Part shown: positions 1,539-7,324 of the stretch, piece by piece
How positions within the stretch are numbered: the stretch's first letter is position 1
Layout of the letters: each line of letters opens with the position of its first letter
Assembly: GCA_030615745.1 (NCBI GenBank)
Contig: JAUWYR010000064.1
Span: 1-7,324, forward strand
Direction of reading: 5' to 3'
DNA: 7,324 nucleotides
From: Candidatus Zixiibacteriota bacterium
Lineage (GTDB): Bacteria; Zixibacteria; MSB-5A5; SM23-73-2
Program-made: the position numbers and the translations under genes
Notes under the pieces: model-generated
Seen by the model: the letters and a program-made list of their open reading frames with translations, nothing else
The model's database searches: none
Told to the model about the DNA's origin: nothing

Positions 1539-1979
1539 ATGGAGAAAATTAACAAGCTCATTAAGTCATTCAGGGATAAAGGGTTGAAAATAACTCCCCA
1601 GAGGCTGGCTATCTTTAAGATTCTTGAGAATAACAACTCCCACCCTTCAGCTGAACAGATATATCATAATCTCAAGAGAGGCTATCCTACTATCTCTTTA
1701 GCAACGGTCTACAAAACCTTGGAGATTTTAGAAGAGATGGGGGAGGTAAAACTTTTAAAAATAAACTATGACAGAAAAAGATATGATCCAGATTGTTCCC
1801 CTCATCATCATCTGATCTGCGTTGGATGTCGCAAGATAGTTGATATATTCGAGGACTATTCAAATGCTTTAAAGGTTCCATCTCAAATTAAAGATGAATT
1901 CACAATAACAGACTTCCGGGTGGAGTTTTTTGGCCTATGTAAGAAGTGTAAGAACAAACGCAAATTTAAAGAAAAATAA
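1539..1979 (+). CDS. perR: PerR-type peroxide-sensing repressor (Fur family)
   Basis: This 146-residue protein has normal Fur-family length: a winged-helix DNA-binding domain (about 1-85, with ITPQRLAIF and the recognition segment ATVYKTLEIL) and a metal-binding dimerisation domain. Structural zinc ligands are C94/C97 and C134/C137. The regulatory metal site matches PerR: H35 (in HPSAEQIY), D83, H89, H91 and D102. The Asp at the last position (IVD) is typical of PerR, whereas Fur usually has Glu. In PerR, Fe(II) and peroxide oxidise the site's histidines and release DNA. No Shine-Dalgarno is visible before the ATG, so translation may be weak or start close to the transcript end. It heads a tight group with the next two genes (30 bases to the next start). 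Palindromes directly upstream suggest autoregulation. The Fur-family call is very secure; the PerR subtype is likely. Confidence 0.9.
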   Translation: MEKINKLIKSFRDKGLKITPQRLAIFKILENNNSHPSAEQIYHNLKRGYPTISLATVYKTLEILEEMGEVKLLKINYDRKRYDPDCSPHHHLICVGCRKIVDIFEDYSNALKVPSQIKDEFTITDFRVEFFGLCKKCKNKRKFKEK

Positions 1980-2009: not shown

Positions 2010-2990
2010 ATGACCGAAGATAAAAAGGATTTAATTATCGATATTCTTCTGCAGGCAGTGAAGAAGGAGACTGATGCTTTTAATCACTATAATAAAGCCA
2101 GCCAGAGCTCTCCTTTTCCTGAAACCAAAGGATTGTTATCCCAGTTAGCTGGGGAGGAAAGAAAACACCGGATGATTTTGCTCCGTGAGATTCAGGCTCT
2201 GAAGGGCCAGGTCAAGCGAAAAGGTAAAAGTAAGGAATATATCGAGGAGAAGGATATAAGCTATCACTTACCAGAAAAACCCACTTTTCAAAAGTTTTTA
2301 GTTTTGCAGAAGCTCGATTTAGCTGTGGTCAGTTTTCCCACGCAGTTTATTGGAGGAGATTATTTCGATAGTTTTCCCTTAGGGGAGAATCATCAGGCTC
2401 TGCTTCTTTTCGATGTTACCGGTCATGGGATTGAAGCAACCGAAACTAAAGCACAGGCAAAAAATATTTTAGGTGAATTTAAGGAGGCGCTTTTAGGGGC
2501 ACAAACAGGAGCTGATTTATTTCAACCACAAGCTTTGGTAACGATGCTGAATCAAAAACTATGGAATATCTGTCAGAAAAATGTCTCATTCATTACCTTG
2601 TTTTACGCTCTTTTTGATGTTCAAAAAAATGAAATTTCCTATGTCTCAGCCGGACATGAGCCTCCTGTGTTTTTCAGAGGTGGGAAAGAAGATTTTTTTG
2701 CAATAGAGACTGACCTTTTGATCGGCGTGGATAAAGATAAAACATATGCTGAGACCAAATTAAATTTTAACCCGGATGATATCTTTATCCTTTTCTCTGA
2801 TGGTTTGGTGGAGAGTTTCAATTATTATGATCTGGAGTTTAAACGAGAAAAGATCGTTGATTTAGTCAGGCACCAGAAATCCTATAGTGCAGAGATAATA
2901 ATTGAAAAGATATTAGACGAGGTGAGAAAAACCCTTAAAGGAAAGCCCTTGAGGGATGATTTTACCCTGTCGGTGTTAAAGTTAAAATAG
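2010..2990 (+). CDS. Half-ferritin (rubrerythrin-like) / SpoIIE-RsbU PP2C phosphatase fusion
   Basis: This 326-residue cytoplasmic protein has two parts. Residues 6-65 form a helical pair of ferritin-like type, with E20, Y27 and the diiron ligand motif E50-R-K-H53. Only one of the two usual Glu/ExxH halves is present, so a diiron site would need a dimer. From about residue 100 to the end is a complete SpoIIE/RsbU-like PP2C domain: GGDYFD (115-120), FDVTGHG (134-140), SAGHEPPV, SDGLVE around D264, and DDFT (316-319). The metal-binding Asp residues are therefore present. Such phosphatases dephosphorylate STAS-type antagonists in partner-switching control of sigma factors or other outputs; no STAS or anti-sigma gene is in the window. 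GAGG at 1999-2002 supports the ATG. It lies between perR and a rubrerythrin gene, so a redox- or iron-controlled phosphatase is a reasonable inference. The fusion is not a frameshift artefact: it is one continuous frame. Confidence 0.85.
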   Translation: MTEDKKDLIIDILLQAVKKETDAFNHYNKASQSSPFPETKGLLSQLAGEERKHRMILLREIQALKGQVKRKGKSKEYIEEKDISYHLPEKPTFQKFLVLQKLDLAVVSFPTQFIGGDYFDSFPLGENHQALLLFDVTGHGIEATETKAQAKNILGEFKEALLGAQTGADLFQPQALVTMLNQKLWNICQKNVSFITLFYALFDVQKNEISYVSAGHEPPVFFRGGKEDFFAIETDLLIGVDKDKTYAETKLNFNPDDIFILFSDGLVESFNYYDLEFKREKIVDLVRHQKSYSAEIIIEKILDEVRKTLKGKPLRDDFTLSVLKLK

Positions 2991-3001: not shown

Positions 3002-3520
3002 ATGCCAGAAAAAAGACCATATACAGAAGCAGGAGGAGCTTTTCCTGAGGGTATCGGACCCCTGGAAGTTTTGAGTCTGGGGATATATAACGAGCAAAAA
3101 GCTTATGATTTTTATATTTTAGTATCCGAGAAAATAAAAAACCAAAGTGGCAAAGAGAAGTTTAAATTCTTGGCTTTAGATGAGAAAAGGCACAGAAAAA
3201 TTCTTGAGGATTGGTATCGAAAAGAAAGTGGCAAAAATTTTAGCTTCGATCCATCCAAGGTCAAAAAGATTAAATTCGAGATAAAAGACCAAACCGGTGC
3301 TTTTGAAGTAATAGATATAGCCATGGAGGCCGAGCGTCAGGCTTATTTATTTTACACCTCTTCTTCAGAAAAAGCTGAAAATCCGGAGGCTAAAAAAATG
3401 TTTTTGACTCTGGCAGAAGAGGAAGATGGTCACTACCAGAAGCTTTCTGCTGAAAGAAATGCTTTATCCGGAGGGTTTTACTGGTTTGATATTGAGGGTT
3501 CGGGATTTGTTGAGGATTGA
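3002..3520 (+). CDS. Rubrerythrin-family ferritin-like diiron protein without rubredoxin domain
   Basis: This 172-residue protein contains two successive helix-pair repeats of the rubrerythrin fold. The first has E31, Y38 and E61-K-R-H64; the second has E111, Y118 and E141-D-G-H144. Together these form a full four-helix diiron site. Rubrerythrins reduce hydrogen peroxide to water using electrons from rubredoxin-like partners. The C-terminal Cys4 rubredoxin domain of classical rubrerythrin is absent and the protein has no Cys, so it would need a separate electron donor, for instance the rubredoxin-domain protein encoded next. It starts 11 bases after the phosphatase gene and is probably co-transcribed with perR. 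The first 20 residues are a poorly conserved, Gly/Pro-rich lead-in. A general ferritin-like role (iron oxidation) is the alternative. Confidence 0.85.
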   Translation: MPEKRPYTEAGGAFPEGIGPLEVLSLGIYNEQKAYDFYILVSEKIKNQSGKEKFKFLALDEKRHRKILEDWYRKESGKNFSFDPSKVKKIKFEIKDQTGAFEVIDIAMEAERQAYLFYTSSSEKAENPEAKKMFLTLAEEEDGHYQKLSAERNALSGGFYWFDIEGSGFVED

Positions 3521-3750: not shown

Positions 3751-4086
3751 ATGAAGAAATGGAAATGCTCGGTATGTGGGTATATTCACGAGGGTGACAA
3801 CCCCCCGGACAAATGCCCGAGATGTGGTGCACCTAAGGATAAATTTGAGAAAATTCCGGATGATAAATCCAAGTTGATCGACAGAGCCAGACTTACAAAC
3901 GGATTCCACAAGAAACTTTTCACTATCTTGGAAGAGGTGGAGAACATCGGGATTAAAGGAGTGGAGGATAACTTAGACTCCGGGTGTGTGGCCATCTTCA
4001 TCAGAGCAAAAGATGAGGCAAAATTGTTGCGTAAGTTCATCCGTGCAGAGATCGAGGTTCACGTGAACAAAGGGAAATGGGGTTAG
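3751..4086 (+). CDS. Rubredoxin-like Cys4 domain protein with an unassigned C-terminal domain
   Basis: This 111-residue protein begins with a short rubredoxin-like domain of the kind at the end of rubrerythrins: C6-x2-C9-GY, then C22-PR-C25-GAPKDKF. It should bind one iron through four Cys and carry electrons, most simply to the rubrerythrin-type proteins encoded nearby. Residues about 40-111 are mostly helical (RARLTNGFHKKLFTILEEV) and include GVEDNLDSGCVAIF and an ending NKGKWG; I do not recognise this part. It lacks the His ligands expected of a desulfoferrodoxin centre II. An upstream in-frame ATG exists at 3697, but AGGAGG directly before 3751 and the normal start of the Cys4 domain favour 3751. 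It follows a 230-base gap, so it probably has its own promoter. Confidence 0.8.
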   Translation: MKKWKCSVCGYIHEGDNPPDKCPRCGAPKDKFEKIPDDKSKLIDRARLTNGFHKKLFTILEEVENIGIKGVEDNLDSGCVAIFIRAKDEAKLLRKFIRAEIEVHVNKGKWG

Positions 4087-4248: not shown

Positions 4249-4785
4249 ATGCCCTTACAACTTGGGCAACCTGCTCCTGATTTCACTTTAAACAGCACCA
4301 AAGGAAAGATCTCGCTTTCGGATTATAAAGATAGGTGGGTGGTCTTATTCACTCATCCAGCTGACTTCACTCCTATCTGCTCGACCGAAGTTCCTGAGTT
4401 TGCCAGAAGATCAAAGGAATTCGAGGAATTGAATGCCCAGCTTATCGGCGCCTCAGTGGACTCTGTTTTCTCTCATATTGCCTGGATAAAGGATTTGGAA
4501 AAATCGACCGGAGTCAAAATAAACTATCCCATTGTAGCAGATATAAATAAGGAATTAGCTAAGAAATACCAAGTGTATGATGAGGAGTCTGGTCTGACCT
4601 ATCGGGGAGTGTTCATAATTGATCCCGAGGGGAAGCTTCAGTATGCCCTATATCATCCTATGCAGATGGGGAGGAGTGTTGAGGAGATATTGAGGGTTTT
4701 AAAAGCTTTACAAACTAAAGGATTAACTCCTGCTGAGTGGAAGCCAGGAGAACCTCTTTTAGAACCACCGAAAACAGAAATTTAA
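4249..4785 (+). CDS. Peroxiredoxin, 1-Cys (AhpC/TSA, Prx6-like)
   Basis: This 178-residue thiol peroxidase would reduce hydrogen and organic peroxides in the cytoplasm. The N-terminal GQPAPDFTLNST and the active-site block HPADFTPICSTE are typical; the peroxidatic Cys is C44 in the PxxxTxxC motif, with T41 and the later Arg in YRGVFIIDP as its partners. C44 is the only Cys in the protein. Many Prx6-type relatives of this size carry extra Cys in a longer C-terminal tail; here the tail reads TPAEWKPGEP without one and ends soon after. A 1-Cys mechanism with an external thiol or other reductant is therefore expected. The desulforedoxin-like gene begins 23 bases later and is likely co-transcribed, making its product a candidate partner (inference). 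Confidence 0.92.
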   Translation: MPLQLGQPAPDFTLNSTKGKISLSDYKDRWVVLFTHPADFTPICSTEVPEFARRSKEFEELNAQLIGASVDSVFSHIAWIKDLEKSTGVKINYPIVADINKELAKKYQVYDEESGLTYRGVFIIDPEGKLQYALYHPMQMGRSVEEILRVLKALQTKGLTPAEWKPGEPLLEPPKTEI

Positions 4786-4808: not shown

Positions 4809-4982
4809 ATGCCAGTCAAGAAAAAGACCACCAAGAAGAAAACCACAGCTAAAAAAGTTTACGTGTGCGTCCCCTGTGGCACTGAGGTGACAGTAACAAA
4901 AAAGGGGATGGGAGTTACCCGAATTATGTGCTGTGGTGAGGTGATGAAACCAAAGAGGACTCCCACGCGCAAAAGATGTTAA
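4809..4982 (+). CDS. Small Lys-rich desulforedoxin-like protein
   Basis: This is a 57-residue protein. Residues 1-16 are almost only Lys, Thr and Ala (MPVKKKTTKKKTT), followed by YVCVPCGTEVTVTKKGMGV and then MCCGEVM. The arrangement C20-x2-C23 with the adjacent pair C41-C42 and a following Gly and Met is that of desulforedoxin and of the N-terminal domain of desulfoferrodoxin, which bind one Fe in a Cys4 site. A fifth Cys (C57) is the last residue. The catalytic superoxide-reductase domain is absent. A role as a small electron carrier for the peroxiredoxin or rubrerythrins is likely; the basic N-terminal arm could bind nucleic acid or an acidic partner (inference). A Zn-binding role cannot be excluded. 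A strong ribosome site and the operon position support expression. Confidence 0.8.
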   Translation: MPVKKKTTKKKTTAKKVYVCVPCGTEVTVTKKGMGVTRIMCCGEVMKPKRTPTRKRC

Positions 4983-5071: not shown

Positions 5072-5524
5072 ATGGACCTTTCAAATTTCAATGAGATGAT
5101 AAGATTTGCCATAAGAAAAGAACAAGATGCAGCTACCATGTATGAGACCTACGCTAATCTGGCAGAAAATCCCGGAACAAAGAGGATGTTTGAAGAGCTT
5201 GTGGAGGAGGAGAAAAAACACAAAAAACTTCTCGAGGATGTTACCCGAAAAGATGTTGAGGACTACAAGTTAACTGATATTCCCAATTTGAAAATTGCAG
5301 AGTATTCAGAAGAAGAGGAATTCAAGCCGGAGATGAGCTTTCAGGAAGCTTTGATCTTAGCTATCAAGAAAGAGGAGAAATCATATCATCTTTATAACAG
5401 TTTCGTTAAGGGAACAGATAACCCTCAACTGAAAAAGCTATTTCAGTCCCTTGCCCAGGAGGAAGCAAAGCATAAGTTGAAATTAGAAACTGAGTATGAC
5501 CAGCATGTCTTTAAGGAGGATTAA
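5072..5524 (+). CDS. Second rubrerythrin-family ferritin-like diiron protein
   Basis: This 150-residue protein is built from two helix pairs. The first has E17, Y24 and E47-K-K-H50; the second has E101, Y108 and E131-A-K-H134. All ligands for a rubrerythrin-type diiron centre are present, while the Cys4 rubredoxin domain is missing and the protein has no Cys. An acidic linker (YSEEEEF, about 78-84) joins the halves. It likely reduces peroxide with electrons from the separate rubredoxin- or desulforedoxin-like proteins encoded just upstream. GAGGA at 5062-5066 supports the ATG. It shares the two-repeat layout of the protein at 3002-3520 but differs clearly in sequence, so the two are not a recent duplication. 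It is the last gene of the plus-strand group. Confidence 0.87.
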   Translation: MDLSNFNEMIRFAIRKEQDAATMYETYANLAENPGTKRMFEELVEEEKKHKKLLEDVTRKDVEDYKLTDIPNLKIAEYSEEEEFKPEMSFQEALILAIKKEEKSYHLYNSFVKGTDNPQLKKLFQSLAQEEAKHKLKLETEYDQHVFKED

Positions 5525-5911: not shown

Positions 5912-7324
5912 TCAATACCCCAATATCTCCAACTCCGCATATTTCACCATAAGCAGTTTTTTAAACCCAGCCCTGAATTTGACCTCCACCCTCATGTCCT
6001 CTCCAAATCCCTCTTTTTTTATAACCTCCCCCTCACCAAAATAAGGATGCAAAACCAAAGTCCCAACCTTTAAAAAAGAATCCTCAAATCTCTCTTCTCT
6101 TTCTCTTTTCTCTATCTCTTTCTCTATTCCAATAAAATCCTCAATCTCCAATAAATCTTCTGGTAACTCGTCTAAAAACCTCGATTTTAAATTGGTCATC
6201 TCACCAAATCTTTTCCTGTGACGGGCATAGGATAAGAAAACCTTCTGTTTTGCTCTTGTTAAACCCACGTAAAAAAGCCTTCTTTCCTCCTCTAATTCTT
6301 TTGGCTCTTCGATGGAACGGGAAAGAGGGAAAAGTCCCTCCTCCATTCCGGTTATAAAGACCACTGGAAATTCCAATCCCTTAGCTGAATGAAGGGTCAT
6401 AAGATTGACCTTATCTATGCTTTTATCCCAGGAGTCTATATCAGTCAAAAGGGATACCTCCTCCAAAAAAAAGTCCAGAGATGAAATTTCTGTTCTCTCT
6501 TTAAACTCCTCAGTTGCGGATATAAGCTCTTTAACATTTTCTGCACGACTTTCTGCCTCAGGTGTTCCTTCCTCCTTGAGCATATCCAAATAGCCAGTTT
6601 TTTCTATTATCAGCTCAGTCAAATCATCAATAGACAAATTATTTTTTGTTTCTATAAAACCATTGATTAAATCATAAAAATCTTTGAGCTCATTTTTTTT
6701 CCGACTTGCAATACCATCTATCTTTTCTACCATTTTTAAAGCTTCAAAAAAACTTACTTTGTTTTTTCTGGCAAATTCTTCAACTTTCATGATAGTCTTA
6801 TCTCCTATTCCTTTTGGAGGAACATTTATTATCCTTTTTATGTTGACAACATCTTTTGGGTTGGAGATAATCTTCATATAAGCTAAAATATCTTTTATCT
6901 CCTTTCTCTGGTAAAATCTCACCCCTCCCACAATCACATATGGTATTGCTGAATCCCTGAGCTTCTGTTCTAAAACTCTTGATTGCGCATTTGTGCGGTA
7001 GAGTATCACCAAATCGGAAAAGGAAAGATCGGTATTTTTTATAAAATATTGAACTTTTTGAACGCAAGAGGATGCCTCCTCTGTCTCATTTTCAACAAGA
7101 GTCAAAACAACCTTATCCCCTCCTTCTTTCTCAGTCCATAAGGTTTTTCCCTTCCTTCCAAAGTTGTTCTCAACCACGGCTGAGGCAGCATCCAAGATCG
7201 CCCGGGTTGAACGATAGTTCTGCTCCAGTTTTATTACCTGGCAATCAGGATAATCTTTTTCAAAATCTAAGATGTTATTCAAATCAGCCCCTCTCCATCC
7301 GTAGATCGACTGGTCGTCATCCCC
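5912..7324 (-). CDS. PcrA/UvrD-type superfamily 1 DNA helicase, C-terminal part (incomplete)
   Basis: The frame is open to the right edge, leaving 470 residues of a protein usually about 700-750 long; the N-terminal ATPase part with the Walker A motif is outside. The visible part begins at the DEXX-box motif II/III region (GDDDQSIYGWRGAD), then LEQNYRST (motif IV, 33-40), domain 2B, TLHSAKGLEFPVVFITG (motif V, about 306-325), and RRLFYVGLTRAKQ (motif VI, about 350-360). The C-terminal tail (about 420-470), with HPYFGEGEV and LLMVKYAELEIL, is the Tudor-like extension of PcrA/UvrD that contacts RNA polymerase. Such helicases unwind DNA 3'-5' in nucleotide excision repair and in replication conflicts. 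It converges on the rubrerythrin gene, is probably unrelated to the oxidative-stress group, and appears undamaged. Confidence 0.95.
   Translation of the reverse strand, partial: GDDDQSIYGWRGADLNNILDFEKDYPDCQVIKLEQNYRSTRAILDAASAVVENNFGRKGKTLWTEKEGGDKVVLTLVENETEEASSCVQKVQYFIKNTDLSFSDLVILYRTNAQSRVLEQKLRDSAIPYVIVGGVRFYQRKEIKDILAYMKIISNPKDVVNIKRIINVPPKGIGDKTIMKVEEFARKNKVSFFEALKMVEKIDGIASRKKNELKDFYDLINGFIETKNNLSIDDLTELIIEKTGYLDMLKEEGTPEAESRAENVKELISATEEFKERTEISSLDFFLEEVSLLTDIDSWDKSIDKVNLMTLHSAKGLEFPVVFITGMEEGLFPLSRSIEEPKELEEERRLFYVGLTRAKQKVFLSYARHRKRFGEMTNLKSRFLDELPEDLLEIEDFIGIEKEIEKREREERFEDSFLKVGTLVLHPYFGEGEVIKKEGFGEDMRVEVKFRAGFKKLLMVKYAELEILGY

Follow-up and report, generated by a model that had tools for sequence, protein, structure and literature searches.

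A two-helix half-ferritin fused to an RsbU-type PP2C phosphatase in an order of Zixibacteria, a candidate dimer-dependent diiron input

The encapsulated ferritin EncFtn of Rhodospirillum rubrum (Rru_A0973) is a two-helix chain that provides E32, Y39, E62 and H65, with Y39 among the coordinating residues, and two such chains dimerise in a metal-dependent manner, sharing one diiron site at their interface (PMC5012862). Rubrerythrins (PF02915, including sulerythrin) hold both E-x29-E-xx-H halves in one chain. Diiron modules can also control signalling outputs, as in hemerythrin-DGC and hemerythrin-HD-GYP proteins; in the sensors Bhr-DGC, Bhr-HD-GYP and DcrH a non-heme diiron module of the hemerythrin family, whose single chain holds the entire site, is coupled to c-di-GMP enzymes or a chemoreceptor (PMC9388753). 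The PP2C (PPM) regulators RsbU, RsbP, RsbZ and RssB combine a C-terminal SpoIIE-type PP2C domain, which carries metal-binding aspartates, with an N-terminal regulatory module, and they are activated when these modules and the linkers join the PP2C domains, improving the loading of the metal cofactor; dimerisation through swappable N-terminal modules has recently been proposed as a general principle for RsbU-type phosphatases (PMC12143880). Oxygen sensing feeds into partner switching and iron metabolism in the Vibrio vulnificus stressosome, where the sensor is heme in RsbR (PMC9237108).

We analysed a window of 7,324 nucleotides, the whole of a 7.3-kb contig in a draft genome of the uncultured Zixibacteria (2.28 Mb, 98.6% complete), which encodes a half-ferritin joined to a SpoIIE/RsbU-type PP2C phosphatase (Table 1). 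The protein is best filed as a variant RsbU-type PP2C regulator with an EncFtn-like, not encapsulin-linked, half-ferritin input. It shares with EncFtn, EncB and Pyrococcus PFC_05175 the two-helix half-ferritin and the ligand spacing, and these are its closest solved structures; EncFtn, however, is a stand-alone encapsulin cargo, whereas the half-ferritin of the fusion sits on a PP2C domain. The encapsulin family PF04454 had no match in the 11 genomes of the order (control matches in 3 of 14), and the curated NCBIfam models for EncFtn and EncB score the fusion at 22.2 and 20.7 bits, below their cut-offs of 90 and 125. The rubrerythrins share its sequence family, helix-pair register and locus, but the fusion has one half only. 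Its resemblance to the RsbU family extends to RsbV/RsbW-type partners present in the same genome, whereas the helical coiled-coil linker of that family is not predicted in the monomer model. Unlike the hemerythrin sensors, it has a PP2C output and a module of another family, and unlike the stressosome it would sense by a diiron site on the phosphatase. The inputs named for the RsbU family are the helical domain of RsbU, PAS, receiver, GAF and HAMP, none of them ferritin-like (PMC12143880), which bears out an earlier remark that such an input is unusual. Ferritin, rubrerythrin and hemerythrin go unmentioned in the main text of a survey of PP2C domains (PMC12088040), and a full-text literature search, which covered few subscription papers so that absence is not proof, returned nothing relevant on a rubrerythrin or ferritin-like domain with SpoIIE or PP2C.

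Table 1. Coordinates of the features in the window
Feature	Position	Strand	Evidence or remark
perR-like Fur-family regulator	1539..1979	+	PF01475; best NCBIfam model PerR, below its cut-off
Fusion gene, half-ferritin + SpoIIE/RsbU-type PP2C	2010..2990	+	326 aa; Pfam, AlphaFold2, orthologues
Two-helix half-bundle, residues 3-66	2016..2207	+	PF02915; AlphaFold2; EncFtn/EncB/rubrerythrin matches
E20 codon, predicted metal ligand	2067..2069	+	EncFtn E32 equivalent by spacing; invariant in relatives
Y27 codon	2088..2090	+	EncFtn Y39 equivalent by spacing; invariant
E50-R-K-H53 codons, predicted ligands	2157..2168	+	EncFtn E62/H65 equivalents; E50, H53 invariant
Linker, residues 67-100	2208..2309	+	Low confidence 68-81; poorly conserved except S84, P88
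PP2C (SpoIIE family) catalytic domain, D117, D135, D264, D316	2310..2987	+	PF07228; RssB/SpoIIE/RsbX structures
Stand-alone rubrerythrin rbr1, two E-x29-ExxH halves	3002..3520	+	PF02915; adjacency kept in relatives
Peroxiredoxin (AhpC/TSA)	4249..4785	+	PF00578; oxidative-stress neighbourhood
Second stand-alone rubrerythrin rbr2	5072..5524	+	PF02915; orthologue flanks fusion in other families of the order

The gene is one uninterrupted frame from its ATG start to its stop. Pfam places Rubrerythrin (PF02915) on residues 11-81 (E=4.2e-8, above the curated cut-off) and SpoIIE (PF07228) on residues 127-325 (E=1.1e-36, profile positions 3-191 of 192), and both families match all nine relatives scanned. 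Since the PF02915 alignment covers only 75 of the 137 profile positions, the fusion carries half of the rubrerythrin family domain; no rubredoxin domain was found on it with Pfam, and no hemerythrin family appeared among the Pfam matches up to E=1. The first-pass annotation had described a single unbroken frame joining a rubrerythrin-like helix pair to a PP2C domain with its acidic motifs, lying between perR-like and rubrerythrin genes; the frame, the numbering of E20, E50 and H53, the acidic motifs and the gene order all proved correct.

In the AlphaFold2 model the N-terminal part consists of two main helices only (residues 3-33 and 37-66, pLDDT about 80-94), as in half of a ferritin bundle. 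The motif E-x29-E-xx-H occurs once in the fusion and in both halves of each neighbouring rubrerythrin, in the same register. Counted from E20, the offsets of E20, Y27, E50 and H53 (0, +7, +30 and +33) are identical to those of E32, Y39, E62 and H65 in EncFtn. These four residues are invariant in 10 orthologues, and a partial copy (G007) keeps them too; the invariant positions of the half-bundle are I12, L13, A16, E20, A23, Y27, S31, S34, L42, Q45, L46, A47, E49, E50, H53, L57 and E60. The conserved residues cluster on a single face of either helix (permutation p=0.0001 and 0.0009); the angle to the centre of this face is at most 17 degrees for E20, Y27 and H53 and at most 46 degrees for E50. 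Between close relatives, dN/dS was 0.03-0.08 for the half-bundle, about 0.06-0.13 for the PP2C domain and 0.13-1.07 for the linker, counting only pairs with measurable dS (saturated pairs dropped) and with noisy values for the 34-residue linker. The half-bundle had the lowest value of the parts in most comparable pairs. It is thus under strong purifying selection, and the values indicate that it is constrained at least as much as the enzyme.

Structure comparison of the N-terminal model pointed in the same direction as the ligand spacing. The best 48 Foldseek matches were two-helix encapsulated or EncFtn-like ferritins, with probabilities of about 1.0 and E-values of 0.03-0.2, which are weak alone for two helices. 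With VIA-align, EncFtn, EncB, sulerythrin and rubrerythrin were among the best matches (top Z 9.8 for EncFtn/EncB; EncB at 1.2 A over 59 residues, Z 9.7), mixed with unrelated hairpins; similar Z values are reached between two-helix hairpins and many coiled coils that are not related to them. A sequence profile against the PDB retrieved the rubrerythrin-like protein 2fzf (E=1e-7) and the Pyrococcus encapsulated ferritin (E=3e-4). The model thus probably represents a ferritin-like fold, as had been anticipated, its closest structures being EncFtn, EncB and rubrerythrin. The accompanying suggestion that a metal site may require a dimer gains strength, by analogy, from the PDB matches and from ligand spacing equal to that of EncFtn, for which the dimer was shown experimentally (PMC5012862).

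The phosphatase part has Pseudomonas RssB, SpoIIE, Rv1364c and RsbX as its nearest solved structures. Its four aspartates are invariant in relatives and the first three motifs align with RssB; residue 317 is D in the genus of the window and E in other families. The monomer model (AlphaFold2) shows no linker helix, with low confidence at residues 68-81, and does not predict an RsbU/RssB-like coiled coil; the linker of RsbU itself is flexible while the protein is inactive (PMC12143880).

Full-length fusions are present in 10 of the 11 genomes of the order, the window's included, the others being 34-71% identical to that of the window. The eleventh copy (G007) matches to residue 132, where about 100 Ns mark an assembly gap, and has V in place of D117. 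Among named genomes the closest relative, and the only close one found, is in candidate division Zixibacteria SM23_73_2 (71% identity). The fusion of a ferritin-like half to a PP2C domain is real. In a tree, the fusion half-bundles group together in one clade (support 98/98), which makes a single origin likely on the sequences at hand. The first halves of rbr3 proteins lie nearest to this clade, with support of 80/76 and long branches, and we do not claim them as donor.

No fused frame was among the matches listed for the 121 other genomes of the phylum; there the N-terminal profile matched short frames, mostly of 150-220 aa, as expected for stand-alone rubrerythrins, and the phosphatase part alone matched other proteins. 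In the phyla of L006 (400 genomes, E<=1e-40) and L007 (392 genomes, E<=1e-36), where scoring took in the top five candidates of each genome, so that distant fusions could be missed, only the phosphatase part was matched and the fusion was not seen. Viral contigs gave no relatives of the fusion. Several candidates were set aside. The L006 (Caldilineales) match starts at about residue 85-102 and its N-terminus has a zinc-finger-like CxxC pattern, proteins of ~175 aa matching the half-bundle and linker are ordinary two-half rubrerythrins, and a plasmid match (H1, residues 13-324) to a 670-aa SpoIIE protein at 24% identity, whose N-terminus was unprofiled, was judged a chance helical alignment.

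The order of genes in the window is perR-like, fusion, rbr1, rubredoxin-like, peroxiredoxin, a lone desulfoferrodoxin N-terminal domain and rbr2, with 30 bases separating the perR-like gene from the fusion and 11 bases separating the fusion from rbr1. The fusion adjoins rbr1 and/or rbr2 in 8 of the 11 genomes, co-directionally and with a spacing of 4-22 bases in several families; in family f2 (G002, G006, G008) rbr2, 4 bases, the fusion, about 20 bases and rbr1 follow one another. In genus g3 (G003, G010, G007) rubrerythrins are not adjacent, and the downstream contig is short in G010 and others. Linkage to perR was seen in G000 and G001 only, in the genus of the window. The AT-rich stretch before perR (1500-1531) has PerR-box-like matches with 2-3 mismatches that overlap a promoter-like site, so that autoregulation is possible; a PerR-box-like site at 1517-1531 has 2 mismatches, lies within very AT-rich sequence and has 3 mismatches in its G001 equivalent, and is not claimed.

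Other features of the contig were recorded alongside. The protein at 3751-4086 combines a rubredoxin-like domain (RUBY_RBDX) with about 75 family-less residues and is kept in several genomes of the order, while 4809-4982 encodes the lone desulfoferrodoxin N-terminal (metal ribbon) domain, of 57 aa with a lysine-rich start and lacking the superoxide reductase domain, conserved in G001. In family f2, a 245-aa FAD_binding_4 protein (L034 7058-7795; also G002, G008 and G004), its family tested in G006 only, is encoded upstream of rbr2, of the fusion or of both. The 3' end of a tRNA-Ser(GCT) gene (1194-1283, minus) is repeated at 33 of 34 bases, 825 bases apart (367-400 and 1192-1225); the two copies flank a 225-aa ORF (439-1116, minus) that has CxxC pairs and matches no Pfam or NCBIfam family, an arrangement resembling an att-type duplication on either side of a small inserted element. 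A perfect 33-base direct repeat (109-141 and 273-305, 164 bases apart) lies near the contig end. At 5912-7324 (minus), the C-terminal part of what appears by eye to be a UvrD/PcrA-type helicase is cut by the contig end, and its G001 homologue is longer (717 aa, 79% identity).

Components of a partner-switching pathway are encoded elsewhere in the genome. It has one clear RsbW-type kinase (C61) with a STAS gene beside it, this STAS gene being adjoined by that of a GAF-SpoIIE protein. Another two STAS proteins (C34, C12) and another two SpoIIE phosphatases are encoded in addition. A kinase-type ATPase match above cut-off occurs in 9 of the 11 genomes of the order and is missing in G006 (90% complete) and G008 (74% complete). 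The RsbW-like kinase and the three STAS proteins are possible partners of the fusion; there is no kinase or STAS gene beside the fusion, so we infer the pathway link.

We regard it as somewhat probable that the protein is an RsbU-type PP2C phosphatase with an EncFtn-like half-ferritin input, in which paired hairpins hold a symmetric interfacial diiron site that switches the phosphatase. In this scheme, where the metal identity, the dimer, the redox sensing, the direction of the switch and the STAS substrate are all putative, the N-terminal hairpins of two chains of the cytosolic protein would assemble a four-helix bundle, in which E20, E50 and H53 of each chain, with Y27, would together hold a single diiron site between the chains. 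Binding of iron, and its oxidation through O2 or peroxide, would alter the stability or geometry of the dimer; how the PP2C domains pair and take up their metal would change with it, so that dephosphorylation of a phospho-STAS protein would go up or down and shift an RsbW-type switch; our guess is that the iron-loaded dimer would be the active state. Iron-driven dimerisation of a half-ferritin fits the activation logic of RsbU-type enzymes, because there too N-terminal modules pair the PP2C domains (PMC12143880), while the variable linker, with no coiled coil predicted, makes transmission the weak step. We hold more tentatively, as a serious possibility, that the diiron site exists only across the dimer and so constitutes a dimerisation switch of a Ser/Thr phosphatase; with the same reserve, iron or redox state may make or break the ferritin-like bundle and turn partner switching on or off.

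Conservation of the half-bundle bears on the idea that it is a plain dimerisation scaffold with no regulatory metal, the input coming from another protein, as with RsbT for RsbU. The N-terminal domain of RsbU is indeed helical, serves for dimerisation and binds a partner (PMC12143880), and the variable linker is compatible with such a role; the polar E20, E50 and H53, however, remain invariant on the conserved face in spite of the overall divergence, and this part of the protein shows the lowest dN/dS in most pairs, so that we consider a mere scaffold unlikely. It is rather unlikely that the half-bundle docks on rbr1 or rbr2 as a hetero-oligomer, the rubrerythrin sensing and the fusion reading the signal through a shared four-helix bundle: each rubrerythrin already contains two complete halves, the ligands of the fusion itself are invariant and its gene is unlinked to rubrerythrin genes in genus g3, even though the close co-directional spacing in several families and the common helix register would suit such a complex.

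A half-bundle acting as an enzyme, a ferroxidase or peroxidase fused for co-localisation and exerting no control over the phosphatase, appears improbable. EncFtn dimers are ferroxidases (PMC5012862), and a natural rubrerythrin-[FeFe]-hydrogenase fusion is reported in which the rubrerythrin is a working enzyme (PMC11926857); yet the electron supply that a rubredoxin domain would give is lacking in the fusion, and in RsbU-type PP2Cs it is input domains that usually occupy the N-terminus (PMC12143880). That the gene is an assembly join, or that a frameshift has fused a rubrerythrin gene to a phosphatase gene, could be suspected from a short contig making up the entire window in a draft genome, and absence of the fusion from close relatives had been named as the sign of it; the full-length orthologues exclude an assembly join and, together with the well-supported half-bundle clade, refute this explanation, to which we assign next to no probability.

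If the proposed reading of an EncFtn-like input on an RsbU-type phosphatase is true, a half-ferritin that needs two chains to bind metal would act as a dimerisation switch of defined chemistry, through which iron, O2 or peroxide would feed directly into partner switching. The system is small and soluble, and it lends itself to testing in vitro with a few point mutants.
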